Of a DNA stretch of 64,000 nucleotides, positions 34,221 through 57,773 are shown piece after piece; the first letter of the stretch is position 1; the number at the start of each line of letters is the position of its first letter. Below the pieces are notes generated by a model. It was not told the DNA's origin, searched no databases, and worked only from the letters and a program-made list of their open reading frames with translations. The DNA is from Lachnospiraceae bacterium. GTDB lineage: Bacteria > Bacillota > Clostridia > Lachnospirales > Lachnospiraceae. The translations under genes and the position numbers were made by a program. The stretch lies in NCBI GenBank assembly GCA_029054245.1, contig JAIDFQ010000044.1, positions 1-64,000 of the forward strand, written 5' to 3'.

Positions 34221-34308
34221 ACACAAAGTGTGATACACACGAGGTGTGGTGTACACAGCATGTAAGAAATGCCGCTTGCAGATAAAAGAAGAAGGAGAGG
34301 GTGAGATT

Positions 34309-35346: not shown

Positions 35347-35364
35347 TGTAACTGGGAGATAGCA

Positions 35365-40089: not shown

Positions 40090-40141
40090 ATATACACCAA
40101 AAAAGGAAAATAGTTGAGAAAGGAAACCGTAACTAGGATAG

Positions 40142-40160
40142 AATAGTCCACAAAATAGCA
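40142..40160 (+). promoter_or_regulatory. Repeated operator-like element, copy 1
   Basis: AATAGTCCACAAAATAGCA. Near-identical words occur at 42620-42638 and, less well, at 42446-42460, all between genes of the catabolic island. Possible binding site of the AraC-type regulator at 43933-45510. Confidence 0.45.
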
Positions 40161-40234
40161 TAAAAGTTTCGTTGAGGAGAAAAACAAAAATAAATATAAT
40201 GAAATTAGTTATAGGGAAGGAAAGGATGGAGCTA

Positions 40235-41632
40235 ATGGAGAAAAAAATCAGAATTGCAGGAATTGGAGGATGGCATATCCATTCCAAAGATTTTACGGAT
40301 AAGGTGCACAATTATCCAAATGCGGAGGTCGCCGCTGTCTGGGATAACGAAAAGGAAAGAGGTATGCGGTGGGCAGAAGAATATGGATGTCCTTATTATT
40401 CAGATTATGCGGAGCTTCTGGCAGATAAGACAATTGATGCCGTAATGATTACATGTGAAACTACACGGCACTATGAAATGATTATAGAAGCGGCGAAGGC
40501 TGGAATGCATATATATGTTGAGAAGCCACCCTTTGTGACCAAGGAGGAAGCCAAAAAGGCAAGAGATATAATCGAAAAGTATAAAGTAAAATTTATGCTG
40601 GGCAGCCCGGTTGTAAAGCCGATGCATCTAAAAACAATTGAAATGTTGAAAGGAGGACTGCTGGGAGATCTGGTCAGTATACGATATCGTACTGTTCATG
40701 AATTAGGTCTTCTGGGCACGCATGATCCGTCTTTTTATGAACGGGATAAAAACGGCGGCGGAGCAATGCTTGATATGGGAAATCATGCTATACATTTACT
40801 TTCTTGGTTTGCAGGTGCACCGGTCAGTGCAAAAGCGATTTATACTTCTCATACGGAACTTGCGGATCATAATGGGGTAGATGACAATGACATTGCAGTT
40901 TTGCAGTTTGAAAATGATGTTATGGGAATTATCGAAACAGGATGGGTTACGCCATGGTATCAATATGGTTTTGATTTGTATGGCACGAAAGGAAGTGTGT
41001 CCTGCAGGGCGTACGAGATGTATGTTTGTTTGGAGGATGGGGTATGGAGAAAAGTGCCGGATCAAGAGCTTCCAGAGGCAGAGCAGTATCCCCTGTACTA
41101 TTGGATTGACTGCATTTCGGAAAACAATCGTATAGAAAGAGATGATATTGAGGTTTCGGTGCTGATGACAGAAATATCGGAGAAAGTGGAAGAAGCCTCA
41201 ATTCATCCATGTCAACCTTATGTTTCGCCCTCTATTGCTTGGGACGAGATTGCAGACTCGAATTTAGAGTATGCATTAAATCTGGCAAAATCAGGGGAAA
41301 TGGGGGATATTTTGAATGTAAGGGTTCACTATTGTGGGAAAGAGGATCCTGAAGTGTTAATGGATAAAGCCAAGTCTGTGATAGAAGAATTTTTTGGGAA
41401 GGCGCTTGGGGAGAAGAAGGTCGTTTCTTCTTTGCGCACATCCTGGGTCACTCTTTTGGAATATGGGGATAAAAAACTAGGTATAGCGGAAGCAAATTGT
41501 GGCGTACCAGAGTATGAAAATGCAGTGGATGTGTGTGGAACACAGGGATGGCTGAGAATCAGAGGAAATACCATGGCTTATACAAATACGATTGCAGGAG
41601 ACAGAAATGCCATCTGGCATGAAGTCAATTAA
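40235..41632 (+). CDS. Gfo/Idh/MocA dehydrogenase with an extra C-terminal domain
   Basis: The chosen start gives 465 residues and aligns with the start of the paralogue at 56778; ATG 40226 is also possible. Residues about 1-330 form a complete Gfo/Idh/MocA enzyme: Rossmann start IRIAGIGGWHIHSKDF, YVEKPPFVT (catalytic-Lys region) and GGGAMLDMGNHAIHLLSW. About 125 further residues follow (LEYALNLAKSGEMGDILNV to NAVDVCGTQGWLRIRGN) and read like the second half of another family member without its Rossmann part. It should oxidise a sugar or cyclitol hydroxyl with NAD(P)+. Confidence 0.85.
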   Translation: MEKKIRIAGIGGWHIHSKDFTDKVHNYPNAEVAAVWDNEKERGMRWAEEYGCPYYSDYAELLADKTIDAVMITCETTRHYEMIIEAAKAGMHIYVEKPPFVTKEEAKKARDIIEKYKVKFMLGSPVVKPMHLKTIEMLKGGLLGDLVSIRYRTVHELGLLGTHDPSFYERDKNGGGAMLDMGNHAIHLLSWFAGAPVSAKAIYTSHTELADHNGVDDNDIAVLQFENDVMGIIETGWVTPWYQYGFDLYGTKGSVSCRAYEMYVCLEDGVWRKVPDQELPEAEQYPLYYWIDCISENNRIERDDIEVSVLMTEISEKVEEASIHPCQPYVSPSIAWDEIADSNLEYALNLAKSGEMGDILNVRVHYCGKEDPEVLMDKAKSVIEEFFGKALGEKKVVSSLRTSWVTLLEYGDKKLGIAEANCGVPEYENAVDVCGTQGWLRIRGNTMAYTNTIAGDRNAIWHEVN

Positions 41633-41648
41633 GTAGCAAGGAGGAAAA

Positions 41649-41816
41649 ATGCATTTTGAAAGGGAATATTTAAATAACAAGTTATTCAGTAATTTGCCAA
41701 TGTGTTTTGATGAGATAGCGCCTGAGAATATCGTTTTAAAGAAGGGGAGTAAGGAAGTGCAGACAGGGGCATTTTTAGAGGAGAACGGGGATTGTGATAA
41801 ACCGAAGGAAAAATAA
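41649..41816 (+). pseudogene. N-terminal fragment of an esterase (pairs with 41819-42445)
   Basis: A 55-residue frame with a very good ribosome site (AAGGAGG). It begins MHFEREYLNNKLFSNLPMCF, similar to the start of the intact esterase at 53153 (FSEELLSNRIFDLSEMNF), and then runs into a TAA two bases before the next fragment. About 160 residues present in the intact protein are missing between the two fragments. Confidence 0.6.
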
Positions 41817-41818
41817 TT

Positions 41819-42445
41819 ATGGACAATGCAATTGCAGAAGGAAAATGTGTTCCGTTTATTGTAGTGATGAATAATGGAATGATTCGTTATCCGGGATGTA
41901 ATCTATCTTTACGTGATATGGCATTTGAGGATAACCTTCTTGGAAGCAATATTCCGTTTATAGAAAGCGAGTATAGAGTTTATACAGACAAATATCACCG
42001 TGCAATAGCGGGGCTTTCCATGGGAGCTTATGCTTCTAATGATATAGCGATGGGACATCCAGAGCTTTTTGCATATGTGGCTGCCTTTACAGGATGCATG
42101 TACCATGGAGGAGTTCCCCAGGAAAATTATGTAAGACCATGGGAAAGGGTAATGCTTGAGGATCATGGAGAGATGGTAAAAAAGGAATACAGGGTATTCT
42201 TTCAATTAGCGACGACAATGGAAGACTACATAGATTATGTTTATGAAGATAATAGGATATGTCGCGAAAATGGTGTTGCTGATATGCCGGGATACCGCTT
42301 TATCGTTCACGATCAAGATGAAACAAAATGGACCAGTTGGCGTATGGGACTCTATGAGTATATAAAAATGCTTTTTAGAGAAGAACATGCGTATGAAAAA
42401 CGCGAATATATGGAAAAATATGTGAACACCAGCAAGAATAGATAA
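41819..42445 (+). pseudogene. C-terminal part of an esterase (enterochelin/feruloyl esterase type), possibly still expressed
   Basis: The 208-residue frame matches residues 215-401 of the esterase at 53153: CVPFIVVMNNGMIRY, the nucleophile elbow AIAGLSMGAY, and the tail W.SWRMGLYEYIKMLFRE. The N-terminal beta domain and the HGGTE oxyanion region are lost, so catalysis is unlikely although Ser remains. A weak GAAGGA lies nine bases before ATG, so a protein may still be made. Best read as an internally deleted duplicate. Confidence 0.65.
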
Positions 42446-42460
42446 AATAATCCACACAAT
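42446..42460 (+). promoter_or_regulatory. Repeated operator-like element, partial copy
   Basis: AATAATCCACACAAT at the end of the esterase fragment matches the first part of the element seen at 40142 and 42620. Confidence 0.3.
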
Positions 42461-42478
42461 GATATGGAAATAATGTAA

Positions 42479-42507
42479 CCCCGGAAAGGCAGCTTTCCGG
42501 GGTTTTT
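42479..42507 (+). terminator. Rho-independent terminator
   Basis: CCCCGGAAAG (42479-42488) pairs perfectly with CTTTCCGGGG (42493-42502) around GCAG, followed by TTTTT. Confidence 0.92.
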
Positions 42508-42619
42508 AGCGCCCTATATCTAATTCCTAAAAATGTTATATCAGGTATAAATTGGCTCTTACAAAGAAGCAAGAAGAAGGGTATATTGATATAAAAAGGA
42601 TAATAGGAGAGGAGGATAA

Positions 42620-42638
42620 AATAATCCACAAAATAGCA
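42620..42638 (+). promoter_or_regulatory. Repeated operator-like element, copy 3
   Basis: AATAATCCACAAAATAGCA, differing from the copy at 40142 by one base, about 100 bases upstream of the MFS gene. Confidence 0.45.
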
Positions 42639-42733
42639 CAAACCTTGCATTGTAATGTATGTCAGCTCTGCTTAAAATAAATAATATCAAAATTAGTTGA
42701 TTATATATAAAAAATGGTGAGGTAGTGATAATC

Positions 42734-43936
42734 ATGTCGGAAAATCAGACGCAGAAAAAAAAGAACACAGTTTCGATATGGACACCTGCATTTATAAGTG
42801 TTTGCGGTACCAATGCATTTATGAATCTAAGTAAACAGATGTCCAATTCCATACTCTCTAAATATGTGGATTCTCTTGGCGCAACGGCTGCCATAGTGGG
42901 ATTGGTATCCAGTACTTTTGCATTGGCAGCGCTGATATTTAAGTTTATTTCAGGACCAGCATTGGATTCATGTAATAGAAAAAAGATTTTGATTGGGGCA
43001 ATGATTGCCCTGGGAATATCTTTTTTTGGGTATTCACTGTCAGATACGGTTCCAATCATTATTGTGTTTCGATTTTTGCAAGGTGCGGCGCAGGCATTTA
43101 CAGCTACTTGTCTTTTGACGATAGCTTCCAATACCCTTCCGGCAGATAAGTTCAGTTCAGGGATTGGCATCTTTGCATTATTTGAAACGGTAGCACAGGC
43201 AATTGGTCCTACCATTGGTCTTTGGCTGATGGGAATTGTAGGATTCAAGATGACGTTTGTAATCAGTGCCGTTTTGATGTTTGTATCCGCAATAGTTGTT
43301 GTTTTTTACAAGCAGCCGCCTTTTGTGCAGATGAAAAAATTCCGGATATCGCTCAATAGCATTGTAGCCAAGGAGTCAGTCAAATATGCATTGCTGCTGT
43401 TCATTTTCAATTTTTCTTTTTGTGTTGTAAGTACTTATCTTGTTATTTACGCTGCTGGTCGAGGAATTGTGGATCATATTGGACTGTACTTTACTTTTTA
43501 CGCTTGTGTGATGCTGTTTTCCCGACCGATGGTGGGTAAGCTGACAGATAAATATGGTATTACAAAGATTGTGATTCCTGCATTGTGTTGTTTTGTGACA
43601 TCCTATATGTTGATCAGTGTGTCCAGTCGATTATGGATGTTCCTTCTGGCTTCCTTTTTTTCAGCGTTTGGAACAGGAGCCTGTCAGCCAGCAGTACAGG
43701 CACTGTGCATGAAATGTGTATCTACAGAGCGAAGAGGCGCAGCCAGCAGTACATGCTATATTGCAAATGATTTAGGGATGCTTATAGGTGCCCCTGTAGC
43801 AGGTATAATTGTAGAATGTTTTGGCTACACCGCTATGTGGAGAATTATGACAATTCCAATCATATTTGCAATGATATTTGTAATCTGTATCCGCAAGGAT
43901 ATTAAAGAAGTTGAAGATAGATTCAGGAACAATTAG
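42734..43936 (+). CDS. Major facilitator superfamily transporter
   Basis: The ATG at 42734 (about ten bases after GGTGAGG) gives 400 residues with 12 predicted membrane spans. The first-half loop motif GPALDSCNRKKILIGAM and the second-half KLTDKYGITK correspond to the MFS loop 2-3 and 8-9 signatures. The substrate is not evident; drug, sugar or aromatic-acid carriers look alike. Its 3' end overlaps the convergent regulator gene by four bases. The operator-like element upstream suggests shared control with the 40226-41632 gene region. Confidence 0.88.
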   Translation: MSENQTQKKKNTVSIWTPAFISVCGTNAFMNLSKQMSNSILSKYVDSLGATAAIVGLVSSTFALAALIFKFISGPALDSCNRKKILIGAMIALGISFFGYSLSDTVPIIIVFRFLQGAAQAFTATCLLTIASNTLPADKFSSGIGIFALFETVAQAIGPTIGLWLMGIVGFKMTFVISAVLMFVSAIVVVFYKQPPFVQMKKFRISLNSIVAKESVKYALLLFIFNFSFCVVSTYLVIYAAGRGIVDHIGLYFTFYACVMLFSRPMVGKLTDKYGITKIVIPALCCFVTSYMLISVSSRLWMFLLASFFSAFGTGACQPAVQALCMKCVSTERRGAASSTCYIANDLGMLIGAPVAGIIVECFGYTAMWRIMTIPIIFAMIFVICIRKDIKEVEDRFRNN

Positions 43937-45510
43937 CTGTTTCTGTGAAGTTTACGGTATTCTGACGGAGTAATACCGATTTTGTTAAAAAAGATTCTTG
44001 AAAAATACCGTTGATCGGAATAGCCAACGGAGCTGCTGATTTCCTTGATTCGATAGTCGGTTTCACTTAGAAGAGTCTGGGCAGCTATAATACGCTGGTT
44101 TAAGAGGTAATCAGAGAAAGTCTGGCCGGTTGTTTTGTGAAAAAGTCTTGAGAGGTAGTTAGGACTCAATTTCATTTCCTCGGCTACTGCTTCAAGGGAG
44201 AGTGCTTTCATATAATTGTTCTCGATGATATTTTTTACCCGGATGATGTATTTTGCCTGAACGGAATCACTATTATATGCCGATAAGTGATCGAACATGT
44301 CAGTAAATGCTTTGATATAGCGCATTTTATATTCATCAAAGGTCTGAGAGGTGAGCAGGGTCATCTTGGTATTATAGTAGAAGGAATAAGCATTTTCAAA
44401 ATAGTTGATCCGGTCCATATACTTGTCACGTAAAAATTTCACATGATTAAGGAGCGTCTGCTTGGCAAGAACAGAGGAAAGGGTATCGGCAGGAAGCGTA
44501 AAAAAATCGTTGATATATTGAATAAATAAGTGTTTGTTTAAAGCATTTATTGCATTCTTGATCTGCTTATCAAGTGTAAGGATTTTTGTTCGATCATCAT
44601 TGGAAAGAGCGCCGTCTGTGTAAGTGACAATCCTGTTTTTGGGAAAGTTTGGAGACATTCTGATCCAGATACTGTGTTTGGATTCATCGCAGGAGTCAGG
44701 CAGGTTATTGATATCGGGATAGGCACGCCCTACCCCCATAAAGATTTTAAGGTCAGGTGAAGTATTACAGACATTTTGGGTATATAAAAACAAATTGGGC
44801 AGTTGGCGGAGTACTTCCGCATCTGCAAAAGCCGGATAATTAAAAACGATTCGTATTTCATTATAAATAATTGAATAAACGATATCATAGGTGTTGAACC
44901 AGATATTATTGTGAAGGAACCGCAAGATTACATGCCAAATCTGTTCGGCAATTTCAGAGATCTGGCTGACATTTGAATAATCCACAGCAAAAGTGGCAAC
45001 ACGAAAAAGTCCTTCCTGAAAGGTAGTATGGAAAACATGATTGATTTCATGAATGGTTTTTATTCCATTAAGGATCACGGACAGCTGCTCCGCAAACATA
45101 TTTCGAGATTTGGAGCTGATGGGGATTTGGGATTGAGAACTGCTTCCCAAAAGCCTGGAGGCATCTAGAAGTGCATTGGAAATCTGTTCTTTGGTAAAGG
45201 GTCTTACAAGAAGCTCACTGACATGAGCCTTCATGGACTTGTAGGCATATTGAAAATCGGCACTGGGGGCAATAACGATTACCTCAAGGGATTTTTGGAA
45301 TTTAATTTTAGATATAGCTTCAAAAATATCAGGACCGGGTATTTCGGCATCAATGATAAGGACGTCTGTAAAATCGTTGGATAGGAGCGGAAGCAGATAC
45401 TCACTGGAGTACACCACTTTACCACAATATACGTTTGCAGCAGAAAAAATGGGTGCACTTAAGATAAATTCATAATCGCTTTGATTCGTAAGAGCAAAGC
45501 ATACTCGCAT
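43933..45510 (-). CDS. YesN-like regulator: degenerate receiver plus AraC DNA-binding domain
   Basis: The 525-residue protein starts five bases after GGGAGGTG. Residues about 1-110 have the receiver fold, with DVLIIDAEIPG (phospho-acceptor-like Asp) and ELLVRPF in place of the Lys-Pro motif. The N-terminal acidic pair is missing (MRVCFALTNQSD). A long middle region follows. Residues about 425-523 form the two-helix AraC domain (ALSLEAVAEEMKLSPNYLSR and YFSRIFFNKIGITPSEYRKL). No histidine kinase is nearby, so ligand binding or phosphorylation by a distant kinase is possible. It is divergent from the transporter operon and probably controls it. Confidence 0.87.
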   Translation of the reverse strand: MRVCFALTNQSDYEFILSAPIFSAANVYCGKVVYSSEYLLPLLSNDFTDVLIIDAEIPGPDIFEAISKIKFQKSLEVIVIAPSADFQYAYKSMKAHVSELLVRPFTKEQISNALLDASRLLGSSSQSQIPISSKSRNMFAEQLSVILNGIKTIHEINHVFHTTFQEGLFRVATFAVDYSNVSQISEIAEQIWHVILRFLHNNIWFNTYDIVYSIIYNEIRIVFNYPAFADAEVLRQLPNLFLYTQNVCNTSPDLKIFMGVGRAYPDINNLPDSCDESKHSIWIRMSPNFPKNRIVTYTDGALSNDDRTKILTLDKQIKNAINALNKHLFIQYINDFFTLPADTLSSVLAKQTLLNHVKFLRDKYMDRINYFENAYSFYYNTKMTLLTSQTFDEYKMRYIKAFTDMFDHLSAYNSDSVQAKYIIRVKNIIENNYMKALSLEAVAEEMKLSPNYLSRLFHKTTGQTFSDYLLNQRIIAAQTLLSETDYRIKEISSSVGYSDQRYFSRIFFNKIGITPSEYRKLHRNS

Positions 45511-45586
45511 TGGGGCACCTCCCGGATCGTTTTGCCATTAGTATAGCATAAAAAAATAACAGGAGGAAGATTTTTTATCGATTGAT

Positions 45587-45622
45587 ACTATTCAGAGAAT
45601 AGTGTTGATATAAAACTATAAT
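45587..45622 (+). promoter_or_regulatory. Promoter region of the ABC importer with an inverted repeat
   Basis: ACTATTC-AGA-GAATAGT (45587-45603) is a perfect palindrome directly upstream of TATAAT (45617-45622). No good -35 hexamer exists at the right distance, which fits activation by the divergent AraC-type regulator. Confidence 0.5.
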
Positions 45623-45644
45623 GTTACATGGAGGGAAGAAAACT

Positions 45645-47336
45645 ATGAAAAACAAATTTTTTAAGTCAATGGCATTACTTCTCGCAGCAGTGATGACGTT
45701 GGGAGCATTATCAGGCTGCGGTCGGAAGGATAATCCGGCAGATAATTCCACAGCAGAATTGTCTTCATCTGAGAATCAGGCATCTGATGAGGTCACTCAG
45801 GCAAATGCCATGACAGAGAGTGTAAAAAATGAAAATGCGGCAGACGACGCAGAAACAGTGCACAGAGATGTCGTTAATGTAGGGATTGAGGGAGATCCTG
45901 GCGAGCTCAGCCCTTTCGGACCGACGAATACGGGAAGGAAAGATACGCTTAACAATATATATCAGGGATTGGCGCATGTGATCAACGGTGAGATTGTGGG
46001 TGTTCTTTTTGACGAATATGAATGGGGTGGCGAGGATGAGCATCCCTACTTTGAAATGCATTTATATGATTACATATATGATTCAGCAGGCAACCATTTA
46101 ACAGCAAATGATGTTAAATTCAGTCTCGAAACTGGTAAAGCGCTTGGCAACCTTGCGGACCTTGGGATTGTTGAAAGCGTTGAGGTGGTTGATGATTATA
46201 CAGTACGTTTCCATTTCAATCACGCTCTTTATTTGAATGATATTGAAAATGTATTTAACAACTTGCTTGTTGTTACGCAGGCGGCTTATGAGGCAAGCGG
46301 AGATGGCATGGCAACGATGCCTGTAAGTACATCTCACTATAAAGTAAAAGAATATACGCCGGGATATTGTTTGACGCTTGTTGAAAATGAAAATTATTGG
46401 CAGACAGATGAGAGTCTGATTGCGGACAGAGACAAAGCAAATGTTTCGGAAATCAACTTTTTTATTCTGACAGAAACATCTCAGATGTCTCTTGCACTTG
46501 AGAACAGTTCTATTGATATGAGCTGGACAGTAAGTACAGATGATATCAGTCGTTTTACAAGCACTGACGCTTACTGGCTTTTCCAGGCGACAGATGATCT
46601 TTGCGACTATGTATTATGTAATGTAACAGAAGGGCTTCCTACAGCAGATGTAAATCTGAGAAAGGCAATCTTCTATGCGATTAACTCTGAAGCGGTTATT
46701 CAGTCAGTTTACGGAGGAAGTGCGTTCGTAATGTATGACATGGCAGCGCAGAAAGCTCCGGATGCGCAGGAATCATGGATCAATGAAGAGAATTATTACA
46801 AGTATGATCCCGAAAAAGCGAAAGAATGTCTGGAGCTGTGGGGTGGGGATCCGTCCTCTTTAAAGCTCAAAATTCTTGGTGCAAACGATACTTCTACAGC
46901 AAATGAACTTCAGCTGTTGCAGGGATTTTTAAGTGCAGTAGGCATTACCTCTGAAGTCGTAGCATATGACAGCGCCCAGATTAATACAGCAATGGAAGAC
47001 GCTACACAGTGGGATATTCTGGTTTGTAAAAATGCTACCAATGCTTACGCCCCCAATCTCTGGAAGAATCTTCTTTCTGCTGAAAATTATGCATGGGGCG
47101 GTTCGAAGAACTTTATTTTTGATGATGAACTTCAGAATATCATTAATACAGCAAGAAGTATCAGCAGCCATTCTGATGAAACTGTGCAGGCAGGGCATGA
47201 ATACATCATTGATAATGCTTATGGATACGGGCTGTGTAATTTTAAGAGCAACTATGTAGTGACCAGTGATTGCACGAAAGTAGTTACATCCTTTAAGGGA
47301 GCAGTTCTTCCAGGGGCATGTGATTATATTAACTAA
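45645..47336 (+). CDS. Extracellular solute-binding lipoprotein, peptide/nickel (OppA) family
   Basis: The start at 45645 follows GGAGGG. The precursor of 563 residues has a lipoprotein signal ending LGALSGC and an acidic, Asn/Glu-rich spacer. It then has an SBP_bac_5 fold with the family pattern DVVNVGIEGDPGELSPFGP, YDSAGNHLTANDVKFSLE and VNLRKAIFYAINSEAVI. It captures the substrate of the following Opp-type importer outside the membrane. Family members bind peptides, but also oligosaccharides, opines and glycosides; the sugar-oxidising genes nearby suggest a glycoconjugate here. Confidence 0.9.
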   Translation: MKNKFFKSMALLLAAVMTLGALSGCGRKDNPADNSTAELSSSENQASDEVTQANAMTESVKNENAADDAETVHRDVVNVGIEGDPGELSPFGPTNTGRKDTLNNIYQGLAHVINGEIVGVLFDEYEWGGEDEHPYFEMHLYDYIYDSAGNHLTANDVKFSLETGKALGNLADLGIVESVEVVDDYTVRFHFNHALYLNDIENVFNNLLVVTQAAYEASGDGMATMPVSTSHYKVKEYTPGYCLTLVENENYWQTDESLIADRDKANVSEINFFILTETSQMSLALENSSIDMSWTVSTDDISRFTSTDAYWLFQATDDLCDYVLCNVTEGLPTADVNLRKAIFYAINSEAVIQSVYGGSAFVMYDMAAQKAPDAQESWINEENYYKYDPEKAKECLELWGGDPSSLKLKILGANDTSTANELQLLQGFLSAVGITSEVVAYDSAQINTAMEDATQWDILVCKNATNAYAPNLWKNLLSAENYAWGGSKNFIFDDELQNIINTARSISSHSDETVQAGHEYIIDNAYGYGLCNFKSNYVVTSDCTKVVTSFKGAVLPGACDYIN

Positions 47337-47384
47337 GCAGGTAAGCAGTAACCCGGTAATTATACAAGGAAAAGGTGGAACTAC

Positions 47385-49245: not shown

Positions 49246-49260
49246 GAGGAACAGTTTGAT

Positions 49261-50241: not shown

Positions 50242-51201
50242 ATGTCAACTTGTGTGGAAATTAAAAATCTTAAAAAGTATTTTGACACTCCCGGAGGTAA
50301 ACTGCACGCGGTAGATAATATATCTTTTAAGATTGAAAAAGGGACCACAATGGGAATTGTGGGGGAATCTGGATGTGGAAAATCGACGCTTGGACGTACA
50401 ATCGTACATCTGCATGAAAGCACGGATGGGCAGATTTTTTTGGATGGAAGTGATATTACGCATGTAAGCAGGAAGGAGTTAAAGAAGGTTAGAGAAAGGA
50501 TGCAGTTTATCTTTCAGGATCCTTATTCTTCCCTTAATCCGCGGATGACTGTGGAGGAGACGGTACGGGAACCGCTTGCGTTGTCTAAGAGATTTTCAAA
50601 AGCAGCGCTTCAAAAGGAAGTAGAATGCTGTATGGATAAAGCGGGTATCGAAAGACGTCTGCGCAATGCCTATCCTCATGAGCTTGATGGAGGACGGCGT
50701 CAGCGGGTGGGTATTGCAAGAGCTTTGGCATTAAATCCCGAATTTATTGTTTGTGATGAACCTGTATCGGCTCTTGATGTTTCAATTCAGGCACAAATTC
50801 TGAATCTGCTTATGGATTTGCAGGAAAGAGATCAATTAACATTGATGTTCATTACGCATGATTTATCTGTTGTAAAACATATTTCCCAGAATATTTGTGT
50901 GATGTATCTTGGACAGCTGGTAGAGACAAGCCCTTCAAAGGAATTGTTTAAGATGCCGCTTCATCCTTACACGAAGGCGCTTCTTTCGGCTATTCCATCG
51001 GTTGATATTGATCATCCCAGCAAGCGCATTCTTTTGAAAGGAGAACTGACATCTCCAATTAATCCCAAACCAGGATGCAGATTTGCAGCAAGGTGCCCTT
51101 ATGCTTCCGAGGAGTGCTATGAAGAACAGGAATTGAAGGAGATAACGCCAAATCATTTTGTTTCATGTTGTAAGGTGGAGGAGATTGGTGAGCATGTCTA
51201 A
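50242..51201 (+). CDS. ABC ATPase, OppF/DppF type, variant signature
   Basis: The 319-residue protein starts directly after the OppD-type gene. Walker A is GESGCGKSTLG, Q-loop FQDPYSSLNPR, Walker B FIVCDEPVSALD and the switch ITHD. The signature reads ELDGGRRQRVGIARAL instead of LSGGQ, so Ser and Gln are replaced by Asp and Arg. That implies an asymmetric ATPase pair in which one site may be weak; the variant occurs in some OppF proteins. A C-terminal Cys cluster is present. Confidence 0.93.
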   Translation: MSTCVEIKNLKKYFDTPGGKLHAVDNISFKIEKGTTMGIVGESGCGKSTLGRTIVHLHESTDGQIFLDGSDITHVSRKELKKVRERMQFIFQDPYSSLNPRMTVEETVREPLALSKRFSKAALQKEVECCMDKAGIERRLRNAYPHELDGGRRQRVGIARALALNPEFIVCDEPVSALDVSIQAQILNLLMDLQERDQLTLMFITHDLSVVKHISQNICVMYLGQLVETSPSKELFKMPLHPYTKALLSAIPSVDIDHPSKRILLKGELTSPINPKPGCRFAARCPYASEECYEEQELKEITPNHFVSCCKVEEIGEHV

Positions 51202-51796
51202 AAAGGTACTGTATAACAGTCGCAGATATCATGAATTTTTTGAAGGATATACAGAACGTATTGTCATGGAAAAAGGCAGGGAACGAATAGAGAGGATTTA
51301 TACCGGTGATTATTATTGTCCGGTCATTTCTTCTGGAAGCAGAAAGCTGAGAAAAATGCTTTATTGTACTTTCTTTTTGCTGGCTGTAATGGATTATGGA
51401 TATCTGGCAACTCGTCCATTGGAGATGAACATATCCAAATGGAGCGGAATCTGTCAGGGCTTTCTGGCACTGGCATTGCTCTGGCTGTTGGCAGCAGTAT
51501 TCTATTATGGAACGGCGAAGGAAAAAATGACAGTTAGGATTTACCGCTCCGCTTCAGTCAGGCTTAGGCAGTTAAGCTTTGCAGCCGCCGCATTGTTTGG
51601 TCTTATGTCAATCATATACTTTTTACTTGCGATTGTTGGCGGCGGTAGTTGGCAGGATTTTGTAAAGCTTTTTCCAATGTCAGTATCAGGATGTGCATTA
51701 CTTTTTGCAATGTACAGGCTGGAAGAGGGAACAGAATATGAGATAGAAGCAAATGATACCATTGCGGCAGAGGATGGCGAAAAGATTGAATATTGA
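51194..51796 (+). CDS. Four-span membrane protein of unknown function
   Basis: With the ATG at 51194 (GTG at 51188 also possible) it has 200 residues: a charged N-terminal cytoplasmic part (about 1-55), then four hydrophobic helices (for example MLYCTFFLLAVMDYGYLA and AAALFGLMSIIYFLLAIV), and an acidic tail. It overlaps the end of the OppF-type gene by eight bases, so it belongs to the importer operon, perhaps as an accessory subunit. No family recognised. Confidence 0.7.
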   Translation: MSKKVLYNSRRYHEFFEGYTERIVMEKGRERIERIYTGDYYCPVISSGSRKLRKMLYCTFFLLAVMDYGYLATRPLEMNISKWSGICQGFLALALLWLLAAVFYYGTAKEKMTVRIYRSASVRLRQLSFAAAALFGLMSIIYFLLAIVGGGSWQDFVKLFPMSVSGCALLFAMYRLEEGTEYEIEANDTIAAEDGEKIEY

Positions 51797-51814
51797 GATG
51801 GAGGAGGTGCTAAA

Positions 51815-53134
51815 ATGATGAGCCAGTTATACTGCGGGGCAGGGAGGGCGGAAATTACGCCTCCCAAAGAAATGGCTCCGTTACTTCCGGGACTTGGACC
51901 ACAGAAAATCACTGGTATTTTAGATCCGCTTTTTGTCAGGATTATCCTTATACAAAGTGGACAGGATAAAGCGATGCTGGTTTCTGTCGATCTTGACAAA
52001 GCGCCAAATCAGGAAGAGTTTCTGGAGGCATTAAGTGAAAAAACGTGTGTTCCTAAAGAAGCAATTCTCTATTTTGGAATACATACACATACAGCGCCCG
52101 TTATGGGATATCGTCCTTTTGAACCGTTAGATGTCGAAAAACTGCCAGAAGAAGAGCAGAAAGCATTTTATGAGTATACAGATCTTATAAAAAAAGGATT
52201 GCTCAAAGCGGCAAAAGAGGCGGCGGCAGGGCTCAAACCGGCAAAAATCGGATGCGGGCATGGAGAAAGCTTTATTAATGTGAATCGTATTTGCAGTTAC
52301 GAGGCAGAAAATGAGCAGGGGGACAAGAAAAAGCTGATAGAAACCGGCTATAATGGCGCGGGACCAGTAAGCAGAGACGTATTTGTGATGAGAATAGAAT
52401 CTCTTTCAGGCGAGCCCATAGCGTTCTTCGTTAATTATGCATGTCATAATGTTGTAATGTTTCTGCACGATGCAGGAGATGGCGGCATTCATATCAGCCA
52501 TGATATGGGAGGAGCGGTCAGCCTTAACCTGGAAAAAAGATACCCGGGAGCTGTGGCAGTCTGGTCAAGTGGTGCAGCGGGAGATCTTAATCCAATTATG
52601 GCAACTCAGAATTATTTTCCACATATCAGCAGCGGACGCGCTGATCTTACGCCTTTTAAAGATTTTTCAATGTCTGTTGAACTTCGGGACAGACTGGCAG
52701 GAAGGCATCTTTTGGATATTTTGGAAGCAAATAAAAAAATTGTCTGTGATGTGCAAAACGGAGAGATTTATTCAGCGCTGGCGTTTATTTCTGTTCCTGA
52801 AGGGGAGCAGAGGGATGAGGATGCATGGAGCCACAGCAGAATACGCCTGCATCTTGTTAATATTGGTGAAATTGCATTCATAGGGGTAAATGGGGAGCTT
52901 TTCTGCTCATTGGGAGAAATCATCAAACAAAGTTCCCCAAAGAAAGACACGGTTGTAATCAATCATGACTGCAGCCTGATGCTGGATAATCCGGGATATG
53001 TTCTGGATGACGATACAAATGCCTTATGTAAAAAGGCAGACCTTGTGCTTACCCCTCATGATGGGTTCAAAGCACATGCAGGATATCTTTTAGAACAGCT
53101 TTCTATAAAAACAAAAGAATTATTTGAAAAATAA
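51815..53134 (+). CDS. Neutral/alkaline ceramidase-family hydrolase, cytoplasmic
   Basis: The 439-residue protein matches the N-terminal catalytic domain of the neutral ceramidase family: GAGRAEITPP at the start, the zinc motif GIHTHTAPV, the NYACHNVVMF region and SSGAAGDLNPIM. There is no signal peptide and no C-terminal Ig-like domain, unlike secreted ceramidases (about 650-750 residues). Known members cleave N-acyl amide bonds of sphingolipids. Here an intracellular amide-linked substrate, brought in by the importer, is more likely than membrane ceramide. It has a strong GGAGGAGG ribosome site and lies 18 bases before the esterase gene. Confidence 0.85.
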   Translation: MMSQLYCGAGRAEITPPKEMAPLLPGLGPQKITGILDPLFVRIILIQSGQDKAMLVSVDLDKAPNQEEFLEALSEKTCVPKEAILYFGIHTHTAPVMGYRPFEPLDVEKLPEEEQKAFYEYTDLIKKGLLKAAKEAAAGLKPAKIGCGHGESFINVNRICSYEAENEQGDKKKLIETGYNGAGPVSRDVFVMRIESLSGEPIAFFVNYACHNVVMFLHDAGDGGIHISHDMGGAVSLNLEKRYPGAVAVWSSGAAGDLNPIMATQNYFPHISSGRADLTPFKDFSMSVELRDRLAGRHLLDILEANKKIVCDVQNGEIYSALAFISVPEGEQRDEDAWSHSRIRLHLVNIGEIAFIGVNGELFCSLGEIIKQSSPKKDTVVINHDCSLMLDNPGYVLDDDTNALCKKADLVLTPHDGFKAHAGYLLEQLSIKTKELFEK

Positions 53135-53152
53135 AAAAACAGGGAGAAGAGA

Positions 53153-54358
53153 ATGATGGAATTTTCAGAAGAATTATTATCAAATAGAATATTTGATCTT
53201 TCGGAAATGAATTTTGACTTTACACCAAGAAAAAGAAAAGCAGAAGGGTGTTCTTTTGACCCGGATGTGGATAAGAGCTATGTATTACAGCCAAATGGCG
53301 ATTATATCCTTAAATTTTATGCGCCTGATGCGAAAGAAATTAAGGTGGTTCCCTGGTTTGGTGATCCCACGCCGGAAGGCTATGCGCCATGGAGAGATAC
53401 GCCGCTGCATGCAGTAAAGGATGAAGAAGGGGTTCACACAGTAGTACTTCCCTTTGATGAGAGAAAAACAGGACCCAGGAATCTTGATATTTTTGTTGAT
53501 GGAACCTTCGTGGTGTGGCCTTATCTGCCAGTATTCTGGTCAGGCGGCAAAGTATGGAATTATGTGGAGGTGCCGGATAATGATATGAAATTTTCTTATA
53601 TTTATGATGTGCCTCATGGCACTGTGGCACATGAGTATTATTATTCAGGCGAAACAAAACGATACGAAAGATGTCTGGTTTATACACCACCGGGGTATGA
53701 AAAAGGTACTCAGTCGTATCCGGTTCTTTATCTCCAGCATGGGGGAACTGAGAATGAAACTGTCTGGGTATCATGCGGCAGAGTGAATTTCATTATGGAC
53801 AATCTCCTTGCCAAAGGTGAGTGCGTTCCGTTTATCATTGTAATGAATAACGGCATGATACGTTATGAGGCATTAGAAGCGCCTAATTATGTAGATGAGT
53901 GTTTTGAAAATTCTTTGATTCATTACTGCATTCCTTTTATTGAGTCAAAATACCGGGTAAAAGCAGATAAATGGAATCGTGCCATTGCCGGTCTTTCTAT
54001 GGGCTCTATGCAGACAAATGATATTGGATTTAAGCATCCGGATATTTTTGGCAATATGGGTTCATTTACAAGTACCATGTATCACACAGACTTTTTTACG
54101 ACCTATGAACGTCCATGGCCAAGGGTGATGGCGAATCCGGAGCAATTTATGAAGGACTATAAGGTATTTTTCTGTTCTGCTACCCCCCAGGAAGATCATA
54201 TTCCATTATTTAATAAGGATGCGGAAATTATGAGGGAGGCAGGTATTGAAGGAAAGATGCCAGGGTATCGCAGGGTTCTTCATGATGGACGTTTTATCAG
54301 ATGGGACAGCTGGAGAATGGGACTACGTGAATTTGCAACTATGCTGTTCCGCGATTAA
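53153..54358 (+). CDS. Esterase with N-terminal beta domain (feruloyl/enterochelin esterase type)
   Basis: The 401-residue cytoplasmic protein has a beta-sandwich domain (about 45-140; ILKFYAPDAKEIKVV). An alpha/beta-hydrolase of the esterase D group follows: CLVYTPPGYEKG, oxyanion LYLQHGGTENETVW, nucleophile AIAGLSMGSM, and a C-terminal HD (VLHDGRFIRWDSWRMG) for the catalytic His. It should remove acyl or aroyl groups from a sugar. An internally deleted second copy lies at 41649-42445, beside the other Gfo/Idh gene. Confidence 0.88.
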   Translation: MMEFSEELLSNRIFDLSEMNFDFTPRKRKAEGCSFDPDVDKSYVLQPNGDYILKFYAPDAKEIKVVPWFGDPTPEGYAPWRDTPLHAVKDEEGVHTVVLPFDERKTGPRNLDIFVDGTFVVWPYLPVFWSGGKVWNYVEVPDNDMKFSYIYDVPHGTVAHEYYYSGETKRYERCLVYTPPGYEKGTQSYPVLYLQHGGTENETVWVSCGRVNFIMDNLLAKGECVPFIIVMNNGMIRYEALEAPNYVDECFENSLIHYCIPFIESKYRVKADKWNRAIAGLSMGSMQTNDIGFKHPDIFGNMGSFTSTMYHTDFFTTYERPWPRVMANPEQFMKDYKVFFCSATPQEDHIPLFNKDAEIMREAGIEGKMPGYRRVLHDGRFIRWDSWRMGLREFATMLFRD

Positions 54359-54466
54359 TTTCTGTGGAGGACGAGCACGTTAACGGTAGCAGCGGATGAA
54401 AGAATAATTATAAGAAAATGTAGGTTGGCGTTAAGTCAGTACTTTTCTGGAAAAGAGAATTTAACA

Positions 54467-55861
54467 ATGATAAAAGTAAACGGAGGCAGCCATGGAACGG
54501 ACATGACGACGGGAAAAGTATTTCCGATTATGATCGACTTTGCTGTTCCTCTGCTGCTTGCAAATTTAATTCAGCAATTGTATAACGCGGCTGATATGAT
54601 GATTGTAGGAAAAGTAATTGGGAGTGTGGGGACGGTAGGAGTTTCGACGGGCGGCATTCTCATTACATTTCTGACAGGTGTCGGCAATGCTTTTGGAAGC
54701 GCTGCACAGATTTGTACTGCTCATATGTGGGGAGCAGGAAAAAGAGATAAAATTGGCGAATTGGGAAGCACGGTGCTTTATGTAACACTTTTGGCGTCTC
54801 TGGTGATAGGAGCAGTTTGCATTTTGCTTGCCCAGCCTTTCCTAAAGTTGCTTCATTGTCCAGAGGAAGCATTAGGGCAGGCAAGGAATTACATGCAGAT
54901 TGCCGCCATTGGGCTTCCCGCTGTTTTGGGGTATAATGTGGTCAGTGGTGTGATGCGGGGAATGGGAGAATCCAAAAAACCTCTTTTTTTTGTTACTGTT
55001 TCAGCAATCTCTAATGTGTTTATGGATTTGCTTCTGGTCGTGGTATTTCCTTGTGAAGCGGCTGGCTCGGCAATCGCGACAGTGGCTGCACAGGTAATGG
55101 CATTTTTGGTGTCACTTTTATATATTCAAAATTCACAAATGAAGGATATATTTAATTTTAAAAAGAACAGGTTTAAGATTCAGACAATCTATATCATGCC
55201 TGTTATAAAGATAGCAGTACCACTTGCATTACAGTTTGGGTGTATCCATGTATCACAGATTATCTGCAATGCATGGGTGAATGGATGGGGGATGATTGCA
55301 GCTGCGACTACAAGCATAGGGAATAAAATCGGACAATTCATCAGTGTTGTAACGCTGAGTATCAATGGAGCTGCTGGCGCGATGGTTGCCCAGAATCTCG
55401 GAGCGAAAAAACCTGAACGCGTAAAACAGACAGTCTATGCTGCTTTGGGGCTATGTGCTTTGATTTGTGCAGTAGAAGTTTTTGTGTCATTGGTTTTTCC
55501 ACGACAGTTGTTCTCCCTGTTTACCAACGATGAAAGCGTTATAGAACTTGGGAAAATATATCTTTCTATTTTATTGATTACATTTTTCCTCAATAGCCTG
55601 CAGGGACCATATACATCAGTCATCACAGGGAGTGGAAACGCAAAATTGAGTTTTGCGTATGGGGCTCTTGATGGAATTGTTTTAAGACTTGGGATTTCGT
55701 ACATTCTGGCTTATGTTTATGGACTAGGTGTAATTGGCTATTGGATTGGGAATGCGCTGGCGCATCTCGGACCGGTCATTATAGGCATTATTTACTTCTA
55801 TTGCGGAAGCTGGGCAAAACGACGTTTGACCAGCGATGAAATAAAGGAAGGGGGGAAATAA
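54467..55861 (+). CDS. MATE-family exporter
   Basis: The ATG at 54467 gives 464 residues; starts at 54425 (TTG) or 54503 are possible because no strong ribosome site is seen. Twelve spans in two homologous halves are predicted. Family marks are NLIQQLYNAADMMIVGKVIG, MRGMGESKKPL and GAAGAMVAQNLGAKKPERV. It uses Na+ or H+ to export organic molecules, perhaps a toxic aglycone released by the upstream hydrolases. Confidence 0.9.
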   Translation: MIKVNGGSHGTDMTTGKVFPIMIDFAVPLLLANLIQQLYNAADMMIVGKVIGSVGTVGVSTGGILITFLTGVGNAFGSAAQICTAHMWGAGKRDKIGELGSTVLYVTLLASLVIGAVCILLAQPFLKLLHCPEEALGQARNYMQIAAIGLPAVLGYNVVSGVMRGMGESKKPLFFVTVSAISNVFMDLLLVVVFPCEAAGSAIATVAAQVMAFLVSLLYIQNSQMKDIFNFKKNRFKIQTIYIMPVIKIAVPLALQFGCIHVSQIICNAWVNGWGMIAAATTSIGNKIGQFISVVTLSINGAAGAMVAQNLGAKKPERVKQTVYAALGLCALICAVEVFVSLVFPRQLFSLFTNDESVIELGKIYLSILLITFFLNSLQGPYTSVITGSGNAKLSFAYGALDGIVLRLGISYILAYVYGLGVIGYWIGNALAHLGPVIIGIIYFYCGSWAKRRLTSDEIKEGGK

Positions 55862-55862
55862 A

Positions 55863-56777
55863 TTGTATGTGTTAAAAAGTAACAGGCTGCGAATTGAAAT
55901 CCAGGAGCCATCAGAGGTTATGAATTTCACATCCAGATTTGATCCCACATGCTTTATTACAGAGGTTGTGCTGGATCAATCTATGTATTTCGCAGCATCT
56001 GAGCCTCATAATATGACGGAAGATTCCTCTGGGGGAAGAGGGCTGTGCAGTGAATTTCGATTTGATGCCTTTGGGGAGGCTGCTGTCGGTGAATGGGTAC
56101 CTAAACCTGGTATAGGACGATTGAAAAAAGTAGATGAAAAAGATTTTGTTCATTCCAGAAAATACATAAAAGAACCCTTTCAGCATGAACTGGTTGATTT
56201 GCATGATAAAAGGATATCTTTCCGAACATTGCCGGAAGAATGCATGGGGTATGCAGTTGAAACAAGAAGAACGGCTGCGGTGGAGGAAAACAGCTTGTTC
56301 ATGACGATTCAATTGAAAAATACAGGTTTTAAGGAAATTACATTTCGTGAGTATTGTCACAATTTCATCAGTCTTGACGGATTGGCACTGGGACCGGATT
56401 ATCTGTTGGAACTTCCAAATGCAATAAATCTACAGAGTAATGTTTTGAAGGGACCAGATTTTGGAGGAACGGGAAGCAGGCATTTATATGATGTAGAGGA
56501 GGGCGCCATTCGCCCAAGGTATCATAATCCTGGACCGGCAGTTTTTGAGCTTCAAGAAGGTGATATCAGCAGAAAGGTTCCTTTTGTATGGAGGCTCAGC
56601 CATGCAGGTGCAGGGGTTTCTGTAACAGGGACGGAATATTTCCGTCCGGCGGAGGTTTGTATTTGGAGTTATGACCACATGCTTTGTCCGGAGGTGAACT
56701 TTAAGTCAACTGTTGCGCCAGGGGAAGAGGTTGTCTGGAAGCGTCAGTGGACGTTTGATAAGAAAGAGGTGAACTAA
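55863..56777 (+). CDS. Beta-sandwich protein, possibly galactose-mutarotase-like
   Basis: The 304-residue protein uses a TTG start directly after the MATE stop, with AAGGGGGG upstream. Predicted all-beta. Segments MNFTSRFDPTCFITEVVL, FREYCHNFISLDGLALGPDY and EVNFKSTVAPGEEVVWKR recall aldose-epimerase-type proteins (H.F...DG..LGP.Y and a late conserved Glu region), but I cannot assign a family with confidence. It is tightly coupled to the following dehydrogenase gene (adjacent stop and start), so it probably acts on the same carbohydrate. Confidence 0.6.
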   Translation: MYVLKSNRLRIEIQEPSEVMNFTSRFDPTCFITEVVLDQSMYFAASEPHNMTEDSSGGRGLCSEFRFDAFGEAAVGEWVPKPGIGRLKKVDEKDFVHSRKYIKEPFQHELVDLHDKRISFRTLPEECMGYAVETRRTAAVEENSLFMTIQLKNTGFKEITFREYCHNFISLDGLALGPDYLLELPNAINLQSNVLKGPDFGGTGSRHLYDVEEGAIRPRYHNPGPAVFELQEGDISRKVPFVWRLSHAGAGVSVTGTEYFRPAEVCIWSYDHMLCPEVNFKSTVAPGEEVVWKRQWTFDKKEVN

Positions 56778-57773
56778 ATGAAAAAACTGAAATTTGTCTG
56801 TGCAGGCGGCTGGCACATACATGCATTGGATTTTCCAATGGACAGAGCGCCTAAGAAAGTGCCGCATTTGGAGAAGGAATTTGCTGCTGTATGGGATAAT
56901 GATAAGGAGCGAGGTGAAAAATGGGCGGAAGCAATGAACTGCATGTTTGTTGAGGATTATGATCAGCTTCTTGCAATTCCCGATATAGATGGTGTTCTGA
57001 TTACATCTGAGACAAGCATGCATGAAGAGTTGATTGTGAAAGCGGCGGAAGCTGGTATAAATGTCTTTGTGGAGAAGGCGCTTACGACAACAAATGAAAG
57101 CGCCTACAGGATCAGAGAAGCAGTAAAGCGTAGTAACATTAAGTTTACCGTTTCAGATCCTGTACGTCATGGTGATCTTTTGTATGCCAAGGAACTGGTG
57201 GATAAGGGCGTAATTGGAGAGCTGATTAGTGTAAGATCGAGGATGAGCAATGCATGTGCCATTAATGATCAGGATTCAATAAGACAGTATTATGAAGTGG
57301 AATGCACTGGCGGCGGCGCTATGATTGATATGGGATATCATAATATTCACAGGATTCAGTGGTTCCTGGGCAAACCTGTACGTGCTGCTTCCATTCTTGT
57401 CCCGTTTACGGATTATGGGAAAGAGAAGAAGATAGATGAAAATAGCATTGCAGTGTTTGAATTTGAGTCTGGCAAAATTGGTATTGCAGAGACCAGCTGG
57501 CTAACGGAGGATGCAACAGCATTTGAAGTATACGGCGTAAATGGAGTTATCCGAAGCGATGATGCAGGATTTAGGTACAGAGTTGGGGAGGGCGAATGGG
57601 TGCAGGTACAAAAATCTGAGATTCCCGAGGAGGACACCTATCCTCTGCGTTACTGGATGGAGTCGATTGCATATGATACGCCATGCGAAAAGTATGATAT
57701 AGACTCAGCCGTCCTGTTTACAGAGATGGTGACAGCTGCATATGCAGGAAATAGAGTGCGTGTCGATGTGTAA
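56778..57773 (+). CDS. Gfo/Idh/MocA family dehydrogenase
   Basis: The 331-residue enzyme has a Rossmann start (LKFVCAGGWHIHALDF), the lysine motif VFVEKALTTT (the usual EKP is EKA here) and GGGAMIDMGYHNIHRIQW. It shares the unusual GGWHIH start with the enzyme at 40235, so the two are paralogues with different lengths. It should oxidise a sugar, inositol or related hydroxyl with NAD(P)+. Last gene of the catabolic run. Confidence 0.88.
   Translation: MKKLKFVCAGGWHIHALDFPMDRAPKKVPHLEKEFAAVWDNDKERGEKWAEAMNCMFVEDYDQLLAIPDIDGVLITSETSMHEELIVKAAEAGINVFVEKALTTTNESAYRIREAVKRSNIKFTVSDPVRHGDLLYAKELVDKGVIGELISVRSRMSNACAINDQDSIRQYYEVECTGGGAMIDMGYHNIHRIQWFLGKPVRAASILVPFTDYGKEKKIDENSIAVFEFESGKIGIAETSWLTEDATAFEVYGVNGVIRSDDAGFRYRVGEGEWVQVQKSEIPEEDTYPLRYWMESIAYDTPCEKYDIDSAVLFTEMVTAAYAGNRVRVDV

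Follow-up and report, generated by a model that had tools for sequence, protein, structure and literature searches.

Gene content and organization of the island

The analysed window of 64,000 nucleotides contains an island at 40142-57773, in which two Gfo/Idh oxidoreductases bracket an Opp-type importer together with hydrolases and further transporters. The following features were found:

40135..40174, plus strand: 40-nt regulatory-like repeat upstream of gfo1 (83% identity to 42613-42652)
40235..41632, plus strand: gfo1, Gfo/Idh oxidoreductase (PF01408, PF22725); residues 1-318 form the enzyme, followed by a 147-aa tail
41649..41816, plus strand: N-terminal piece of a decayed esterase with a stop at its end (matched to the esterase N-terminus of locus L015, E 4e-5)
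41819..42445, plus strand: estR, C-terminal half of a decayed CE1-like esterase (PF00756)
42613..42652, plus strand: further copy of the 40-nt repeat, preceding the MFS gene
42734..43936, plus strand: MFS transporter of a cassette-linked subfamily (PF07690; 44-52% identity to four cassette MFS proteins)
43933..45510, minus strand: AraC-type regulator with receiver-like domain (PF12833; PF00072 slightly under the cut-off)
45621..47336, plus strand: OppA-like binding lipoprotein (PF00496)
47385..48356, plus strand: OppB permease (NCBIfam Opp/Nik permease models; 65% identity in locus L014)
48349..49245, plus strand: OppC permease (66% identity in L014)
49261..50241, plus strand: OppD ATPase (NCBIfam OppD models; signature FSGGMKQR)
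50242..51201, plus strand: OppF ATPase with altered signature LDGGRRQR (alignment, tree clade, signature counts)
51194..51796, plus strand: mem, 200-aa membrane protein with two hydrophobic segments (no Pfam match)
51815..53134, plus strand: cer, intracellular hydrolase sharing the catalytic fold of neutral ceramidases
53153..54358, plus strand: est, CE1/feruloyl-esterase-like esterase without signal peptide (PDB relatives; GLSMG motif)
54425..55861, plus strand: MATE transporter (TIGR00797, E 5e-66)
55863..56777, plus strand: mut, galactose-mutarotase-fold protein (no match in curated families)
56778..57773, plus strand: gfo2, Gfo/Idh oxidoreductase (PF01408, PF22725, PF02894)

Re-checking the gene order in the window sequence confirmed the arrangement given by the first-pass annotation, from dehydrogenase through Opp importer to dehydrogenase. 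Its observations on paired paralogues were borne out as well: gfo1 and gfo2 share a GGWHIH start and 39% identity, and esterases of one family lie in both halves, estR being 51% identical to residues 215-401 of the intact est over 190 residues. About 150 residues are missing from the left esterase, and the tail of gfo1 is a broken second Gfo/Idh C-domain (hhalign against a Gfo alignment, prob 96, E 3e-9). The left end of the island is a decayed gfo-esterase part, which presumably arose by duplication. For a recent foreign origin, which was considered and discarded, the composition gave no support (GC of 0.418 in the island, 0.442 to the left and 0.414 to the right).

Exact matches of the repeat core AATARTCCACAAAATAGCA in the genome were confined to the two island copies. 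Allowing 3 mismatches, 6 other genome sites were found versus 4 control matches. A 15-nt part of the core was missing in 63 of the 64 loci fetched by then, the sole exception being the window's own copy. The element was rejected as a widespread regulon site. The regulator itself has a 53% identical relative in locus L050, adjoining the same MFS. Using the MFS family, 15 loci were found, and Opp genes of the window's branch lay near 10 of them, 4 of those 10 being query loci. Both the MFS and the MATE protein are probable exporters.

Hydrophobic N-terminal segments were found in none of the five intact island enzymes, while OppA carries one, in agreement with import followed by processing in the cytoplasm. 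As est has no signal peptide, it is probably intracellular. By homology and its GxSxG nucleophile motif it resembles the CE1 feruloyl esterases; its PDB matches include the ferulic acid esterase 6rzo (E 2e-44), the CE1 protein 7b5v (E 2e-43) and the esterase domains of xylanases Z and Y. The nearest match was 6ne9 (E 1.5e-48), yet this is named an isoamylase protein. The 439-aa cer has the catalytic-domain fold of neutral ceramidases and lacks their C-terminal domain and secretion; the fold suggests amide cleavage.

The importer belongs to a distinct Opp branch

A family-5 binding protein, two permeases and two ATPases are encoded in one operon, as in Opp/Dpp importers, and the set is intact in L014 with L038, and in others. 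The closest PDB relatives of OppA were 5u4o, DppA and AgaA. OppA was poorly conserved between cassettes (24-47% identity). OppF of the window does not carry the canonical SGGQ-type signature and shows LDGGRRQR at this position; LDGG[RC]RQR was present in OppF of all 11 of the first test loci of the window's branch (clade A). The clade formed a single group in the tree (support 86/89). The OppF of L151, on a long branch, was not clear.

Of 397 family genomes, 11 encoded the small membrane protein mem, at 12 places in total; 9 of these places lay within loci of the window's Opp branch. A class-wide search yielded 10 of 391 genomes, with mostly weak scores beyond the family. Weak mem-like matches turned up at 3 of the 20 control loci as well, so that mem is not confined to the clade.

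Co-conservation with catabolic genes

The first-pass annotation had made its pathway depend beforehand on co-conservation of the island genes, and the gene set proved to be kept in part across genera. In Hungatella hathewayi, Diplocloster agilis, Eisenbergiella tayi and MAGs, the window's OppABCDF branch is accompanied by mem, a ceramidase-fold hydrolase, esterases and pumps, in some cases also by Gfo/Idh. The H. hathewayi locus L014 reads OppABCDF-mem-cer (three copies)-carboxylesterase-gfo-MFS-MATE, the D. agilis locus L015 AraC-OppABCDF-est-gfo-MFS. Scanning the genome collection first with the Gfo pair gave no relatives. Among 299 family genomes, the window counted, 3 had gfo relatives at E<=1e-50, all three within Opp loci.

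For a comparison of frequencies, test loci were picked via OppF alone and catabolic families scored within about 10 kb. Using HMMs derived from loci partly selected for the genes counted, catabolic genes were found at 18 of 21 clade-A loci, compared with 3 of the 20 Opp loci outside the clade (pooled p = 7e-6). The positive loci comprised 9 of the 11 first loci and 9 of 10 further loci from the window's own genus; L186 and L187 are syntenic. We are aware of the fact that 8 of the 11 first loci sit in genomes that had given seeds, and that among the remaining 3 L142 alone was positive. For clade-A loci from genomes without a seed locus, 10 of 13 were positive (p = 7e-4). Leaving out metallo-beta-lactamase-fold, lactonase, kinase and other minor families gave 15 of 21 versus 1 of 20. 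L139, L190 and L194 were positive by metallo-beta-lactamase-fold or lactonase genes alone, and three clade-A loci (L140, L144, L191) had none of the listed families. Tier B comprised 20 of 33 matches at 471-529 bits and tier C 20 among the matches listed below 456 bits, both chosen mostly from the top and not at random. The 3 positive control loci carried the same DGG-type OppF signature and the 16 SGGQ control loci no catabolic families, a division of the tier C loci that was made after the result was seen. The window importer belongs to a distinct Opp branch linked to catabolic genes in Lachnospiraceae.

Other parts of the island were less regular. Gfo/Idh at E 1e-15 was absent from the 11 and the 10 clade-A test loci, and cer occurred at 5 of the 10 further loci but at none of the first 11. 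For MATE (11 of 21 clade-A versus 5 of 20 control loci, p 0.11) and MFS (4 of 21 versus 3 of 20) the enrichment was not significant. These parts are therefore not general to the clade, and given its very mixed gene sets the clade need not have one substrate type in common.

Among the neighbours of the clade, members of the DAPG/phloretin-hydrolase family were found in L031 and, by similarity to the L031 protein, in L103 and L192. L142 encodes UbiD/UbiX proteins nearest to VdcC/VdcB, plus BD-FAE; old-yellow-enzyme (OYE) type flavoenzymes were located in L143 and L103, and Amidohydro_2 and EstA-type esterases were also observed. The phloretin-hydrolase-family, UbiD/UbiX, old-yellow-enzyme and feruloyl-esterase-like neighbours point to plant phenolics. 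The island itself contains no aromatic-ring enzyme and no glycoside hydrolase.

Proposed pathway and alternative explanations

With somewhat better than even confidence, we read the island as a system for the uptake and dismantling of a small acylated plant compound, likeliest a phenolic glycoside or phenolic ester. Import is the established function of the Opp family. The OppA lipoprotein would capture the compound and OppBCDF would import it whole. In the cytoplasm, the CE1-type est may take off an acyl group, for example a hydroxycinnamate, and cer may cut a further ester or amide bond. The Gfo/Idh enzymes and mut would act on the sugar, whether already freed or still attached, and the MFS and MATE pumps might expel the part unusable to the cell. 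The AraC-type regulator would turn the genes on, possibly by way of the 40-nt element that precedes both gfo1 and the MFS gene. These roles, and the order of the reactions, are deduced from the gene families.

The earlier proposal of a glycoconjugate pathway thus stands in part. The N-termini of OppA and the enzymes, the proximity of est to CE1 ferulic acid esterases and the phenolic neighbours of the clade agree with it. Its start by Gfo/Idh-dependent 3-oxo deglycosylation is unsupported: DgpA (7xr9, E 1e-14) was one among many PDB relatives of the island Gfo/Idh enzymes and not the nearest, and Pfam and NCBIfam scans of the island proteins except oppC and oppF revealed no DgpB/DgpC-like partner.

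Alternatively, feruloylated or acetylated cell-wall oligosaccharides might be imported and de-esterified as an ordinary side activity of hemicellulose use. The xylanase-associated relatives of est and the GH3 proteins in L034 and L137 agree with this; however, the island has no glycoside hydrolase of its own, ring enzymes for phenolics occur elsewhere in the clade, and Opp-type importers are unusual for oligosaccharides, so that we regard this as unlikely. Quite unlikely, too, are opine-like or Amadori-like sugar-amine conjugates, taken up by Opp/Dpp-type import, split at the N-acyl bond by cer and oxidised at the sugar by Gfo/Idh/MocA enzymes. MocA has a rhizopine role, and OppA is about equally close to the dipeptide-binding DppA and to AgaA (6hlx), which we take to be an opine-specific binding protein of Agrobacterium. 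The ceramidase fold would also suit amide cleavage, but this leaves unexplained the feruloyl-type esterase and the UbiD, PhlG-family and OYE proteins encoded near the clade. A plain oligopeptide importer beside unrelated catabolic genes by chance would account for DppA among the nearest relatives of OppA. It is very unlikely, as catabolic genes are commoner beside the clade than beside other Opp loci, and as peptidases M3 and M20 were within the 25 commonest families for the first 102 of the 176 proteins neighbouring control loci and not within the best 25 for 102 proteins near clade-A loci. Catabolism of a host or bacterial glycolipid (ceramide-like), suggested by the fold of cer, is highly improbable and was dropped as the main reading, because cer aligns with residues 1-485 of 2zws alone and has no hydrophobic N-terminus, its relatives occur with phenolic enzymes, and lipids fit an Opp importer poorly.

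Extending the phenolic reading, the clade with LDGGR OppF could be a general Lachnospiraceae uptake route for glycosides and esters of plant phenolics, in which every copy is matched by hydrolases, oxidoreductases and often exporters of its own; this we offer tentatively, as possible but rather doubtful. To our knowledge, little is known of the uptake of intact plant phenolics by gut Firmicutes, and most descriptions of gut polyphenol enzymes include no transporter. If the reading is true, an importer in which one ATPase signature is non-canonical would account for a step of gut polyphenol metabolism, namely import, that is largely unknown. OppA from H. hathewayi, D. agilis and E. tayi would then serve as direct probes for the plant compounds consumed by each species, and the Opp clade as a genome marker for undiscovered pathways.

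Comparison with known systems

Among the titles and abstract openings of the literature searched, no Opp importer was tied to phenolic uptake; the word "oligopeptide" was not found in the available part of PMC11170127, nor "transporter" in that of PMC8563793. The parts are known, and the linkage of the Opp branch to catabolic genes is apparently undescribed.

With the Opp/Dpp/Nik importers (binding protein family 5) the island shares the full OppABCDF with its family-5 binding lipoprotein, but it differs by LDGGR for SGGQ in OppF, the added 200-aa membrane protein and the catabolic neighbours. Like the CE1 feruloyl esterases (6rzo, 7b5v), to which it is similar over about residues 88-400, est has the GxSxG motif; in contrast to them it lacks a signal peptide and is encoded in an importer operon. 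Compared with neutral ceramidases (2zws, 4wgk), cer is alike in the catalytic fold, with two histidine motifs aligning well and the glutamate motif weakly, but it has no signal peptide and only 17-18% identity. The super-sandwich fold of the galactose mutarotase superfamily is present in mut, which aligns over 241 of 304 residues with galactose mutarotase/aldose 1-epimerase (3dcd, 4bze), whereas no sequence match was obtained in Pfam or NCBIfam at E 0.001 or by PDB sequence search. Finally, as far as the available parts of the sources go, the flavonoid C-deglycosylation clusters of the dgp/dfg type (PMC8563793, PMC11170127) resemble the island in their occurrence in gut bacteria, with Catenibacillus belonging to the Lachnospiraceae like the island's host, in their Gfo/Idh enzymes, which there start glycoside processing, and in their plant-compound logic; the island, in contrast, shows no DgpB/DgpC-like pair among its scanned proteins and is dominated by esterase, ceramidase-fold hydrolase and ABC importer.

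Layout of the island and decay of its left copies

The window lies on a 71-kb contig of a 3.85-Mb Lachnospiraceae genome. Gene calls and domain searches bore out the gene order that the first-pass annotation had claimed:

40142-57773: gfo1 (left Gfo/Idh oxidoreductase), decayed esterase, MFS, AraC-type regulator (opposite strand), oppABCDF, 200-aa membrane protein (mem), ceramidase-fold hydrolase (cer), intact CE1-like esterase (est), MATE, mutarotase-fold protein (mut), gfo2 (right Gfo/Idh oxidoreductase)

From oppA through gfo2 all genes occupy a single strand with intergenic gaps of at most 66 bases, so they likely form one operon. Left of the island and separated from it by a few genes, a DUF5692 protein is followed by a DUF5722 protein (34246-37017), both from families of unknown function.

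The proposed pairing of the Gfo/Idh enzymes and of the esterases was also recovered, with 39% identity between gfo1 and gfo2 and 51% across 190 residues between the esterases. The left copies of both are decayed. The left esterase consists of a 55-codon N-terminal piece closed by a stop and a C-terminal half in a different frame, with about 150 residues absent, and gfo1 ends in a 147-residue stretch that can be aligned to the Gfo/Idh C-domain but has no catalytic loop. The likeliest origin would be duplication of a gfo-esterase segment, the left copy of which would be undergoing loss. A 40-nt repeat was found upstream of both gfo1 and the MFS gene; in a search of the whole genome its core had exact copies at those two sites only.

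Recurrence of the island genes in relatives

Co-conservation of the gene set had been named as the check on the catabolic reading, and part of the set recurs with the same Opp branch in Hungatella hathewayi, Diplocloster agilis and others. The order in H. hathewayi DSM 13479, whose OppF is 80% identical to that of the window, is OppABCDF-mem-cer-carboxylesterase-cer-gfo-MFS-cer-MATE; in D. agilis it is AraC-OppABCDF-est-gfo-MFS. Among 397 family genomes, 11 carried mem, at 12 sites in total: nine inside a locus of this Opp branch (adjoining or a few genes off), two next to another Opp and one with no Opp seen nearby. Branch Opp genes stood near 10 of the 15 MFS loci in the named genome collection (for L060, they were taken from the overlapping L031), or near 6 of 11, Eisenbergiella tayi DSM 26961 among the six, when the four Opp-linked loci that had supplied the MFS query were excluded. 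Relatives of gfo at E<=1e-50 occurred in 3 of 299 genomes, the window's among them, every one in an Opp locus. For cer, relatives occurred in 17 of 299 genomes, with the window and two seed genomes counted in. Another 12 cer loci were examined. In six of them Opp genes of this branch lay inside the retrieved sequence (L093, L094, L095, L098, L099 and L103, the last holding OppA with the remaining Opp genes in L143), L097 lay about 8 kb from the Opp operon of L034, and five showed no Opp of the branch in the retrieved sequence, one of these lying on a 4-kb contig. Relatives of mut are rare, present in 4 of 144 genomes, window included; they were seen next to MATE in L006, within a clade-A Opp locus (clade A being the branch of this island's importer) in L141, and within another Opp locus in L168.

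Catabolic linkage tested from OppF alone

Because these loci had been picked by catabolic or marker genes, 200 family genomes were searched with OppF only. Tier A comprised 21 matches of at least 546 bits (10 already among the collected loci, 11 new), tier B 20 of 33 matches at 471-529 bits, and tier C, the control, 20 of those listed below 456 bits; tiers B and C were chosen mostly from the top. Using HMMs made from 18 seed loci, which had partly been selected for the same catabolic genes, catabolic families were detected in 9/11 new tier-A, 7/20 tier-B and 3/20 tier-C loci (A versus C, p = 5e-4). LysR regulators were present in 6/11 versus 1/20 (A versus C). A second set of 10 tier-A loci, out of 37 genomes of the window's genus, gave 9/10, so that pooled linkage reached 18/21 in tier A versus 3/20 in tier C (p = 7e-6). 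With a stricter family set, 15/21 (8/11 plus 7/10) compared with 1/20 (p = 1e-5). Eight of the first 11 loci were in genomes that also supplied seeds, and among the other three only L142 was positive; together with all 10 genus loci, non-seed genomes yielded 10/13 positives (p = 7e-4). L186 is syntenic with L187, and L143 overlaps L103, itself found via cer.

The HMM search found no Gfo/Idh in any of the 21 tier-A test loci, cer was found in 0/11 of the first and 5/10 of the genus set, and neither MATE (11/21 versus 5/20, p = 0.11) nor MFS (4/21 versus 3/20) was significantly enriched. The Opp clade is thus associated with hydrolases as a group and not with this island's precise gene set. The importer-linked breakdown reading stands in part: the gene set is partly co-conserved and the clade is tied to hydrolases, but the exact set, with Gfo/Idh at 0/21, is not general.

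The OppF branch and its signature

An OppF tree with 69 rows placed the window, the seeds and tier A together in a single group (support 86/89, 88% of bootstraps). Tiers A and B grouped at 98/93, outlier L151 excluded, and the window OppF paired with that of H. hathewayi at 100/98. The window OppF (50242-51201) carries LDGGRRQR in place of the SGGQ signature; 17 seed OppF have LDGGRRQR or MDGGRRQR, the 11 tier-A test loci LDGG[RC]RQR, 19 of tier B [LF]DGGRRQR (18 under a stricter pattern) and 9/10 of the genus set LDGGRRQR, the tenth being unmatched by the pattern. In tier C, 16/20 OppF are of the SGGQ type and four (L166, L167, L168, L170) have ELDGG[KR]RQ. All three catabolic-positive tier-C loci belong to these four, and the HMM search found no catabolic families in the 16 SGGQ loci; by this split, made post hoc, 18/21 compares with 0/16 (p = 9e-8). 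OppD mostly retains the serine (FSGGMKQR in 11/11 tier-A loci), and Walker B of OppF is DEPVSALD in 30/30 tier-A and tier-B proteins. Since the DGG-type signature affects OppF while OppD keeps its serine, one of the importer's two ATPase sites may be non-canonical.

Some Lachnospiraceae genomes (G055, G082, G240) each have between 9 and 11 OppF-family members among the matches listed over the search threshold; several of these belong to the branch itself or to the sister group with the DGG-type signature, an expanded importer repertoire. The window's own genome has a second Opp locus, of tier B (L149, C36:161700-181600), with two more distant Gfo/Idh genes.

Catabolic neighbours of the clade

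A member of the DAPG/phloretin-hydrolase family is encoded in L031 and, by similarity to that protein, also in L103 and L192. In L142 (G198:C3:20100-40000) a clade-A Opp lies near UbiD, UbiX and a BD-FAE esterase; the best NCBIfam models for UbiD/UbiX were VdcC/VdcB (hydroxyarylic acid decarboxylase subunits), with scores under the cut-offs, and the locus looks like a pathway for phenolic esters and phenolic acids. Other families around the clade are OYE-type flavoenzymes, BD-FAE, EstA-type and CE1-type esterases, Amidohydro_2, GH3 and lactonases. Pfam placed LysR, metallo-beta-lactamase-fold and BD-FAE at the top for 102 tier-A neighbour proteins, and binding proteins, PTS parts, MATE and MFS for 102 of 176 tier-C neighbours, peptidases M3 and M20 being among the 25 commonest families listed for the latter. 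These clues agree in suggesting plant phenolics, each indirectly.

L143 and L103 (G256:C13:41300-73000) are one island with clade-A Opp, LysR, est-family and BD-FAE esterases, a phloretin-hydrolase-family protein, cer, two OYE-type flavoenzymes, a lactonase and MATE. L030, L031 and L056 each encode one or three members of a 370-aa protein family, in loci shared with clade-A Opp, the cassette MFS and an FGGY kinase; this family had no Pfam match and a weak NCBIfam match of the PHA-depolymerase type.

Proposed route and comparison with known systems

Beyond the gene content, folds, co-conservation, Opp clade and OppF signature established here, we infer a substrate, reaction order, pump direction and regulation. 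OppA with OppBCDF would take up a whole conjugate, est and cer would remove acyl groups, Gfo/Idh and mut would work on the sugar part, MFS and MATE would export the leftover, and the AraC-type regulator would control the genes. Some H. hathewayi copies may have lost or altered activity, as its gfo (L014:9885-10874) has lysine for the histidine of the GGG-x-x-x-D-x-G-x-H motif and one of three cer copies (L014:13826-15118) lacks the histidine motifs of the other two.

The 3-oxo deglycosylation suggested earlier is possible by analogy with DgpA, which with DgpB/C is described as performing C3-oxidation and then elimination (PMC8563793). The island has Gfo/Idh, as the DgpABC system does, but Pfam and NCBIfam scans of its proteins except OppC and OppF showed nothing resembling DgpB/C. 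Enzymes of known families here surround one branch of an importer family that is likewise known, a linkage that did not appear in the titles and abstract starts listed by literature searches.
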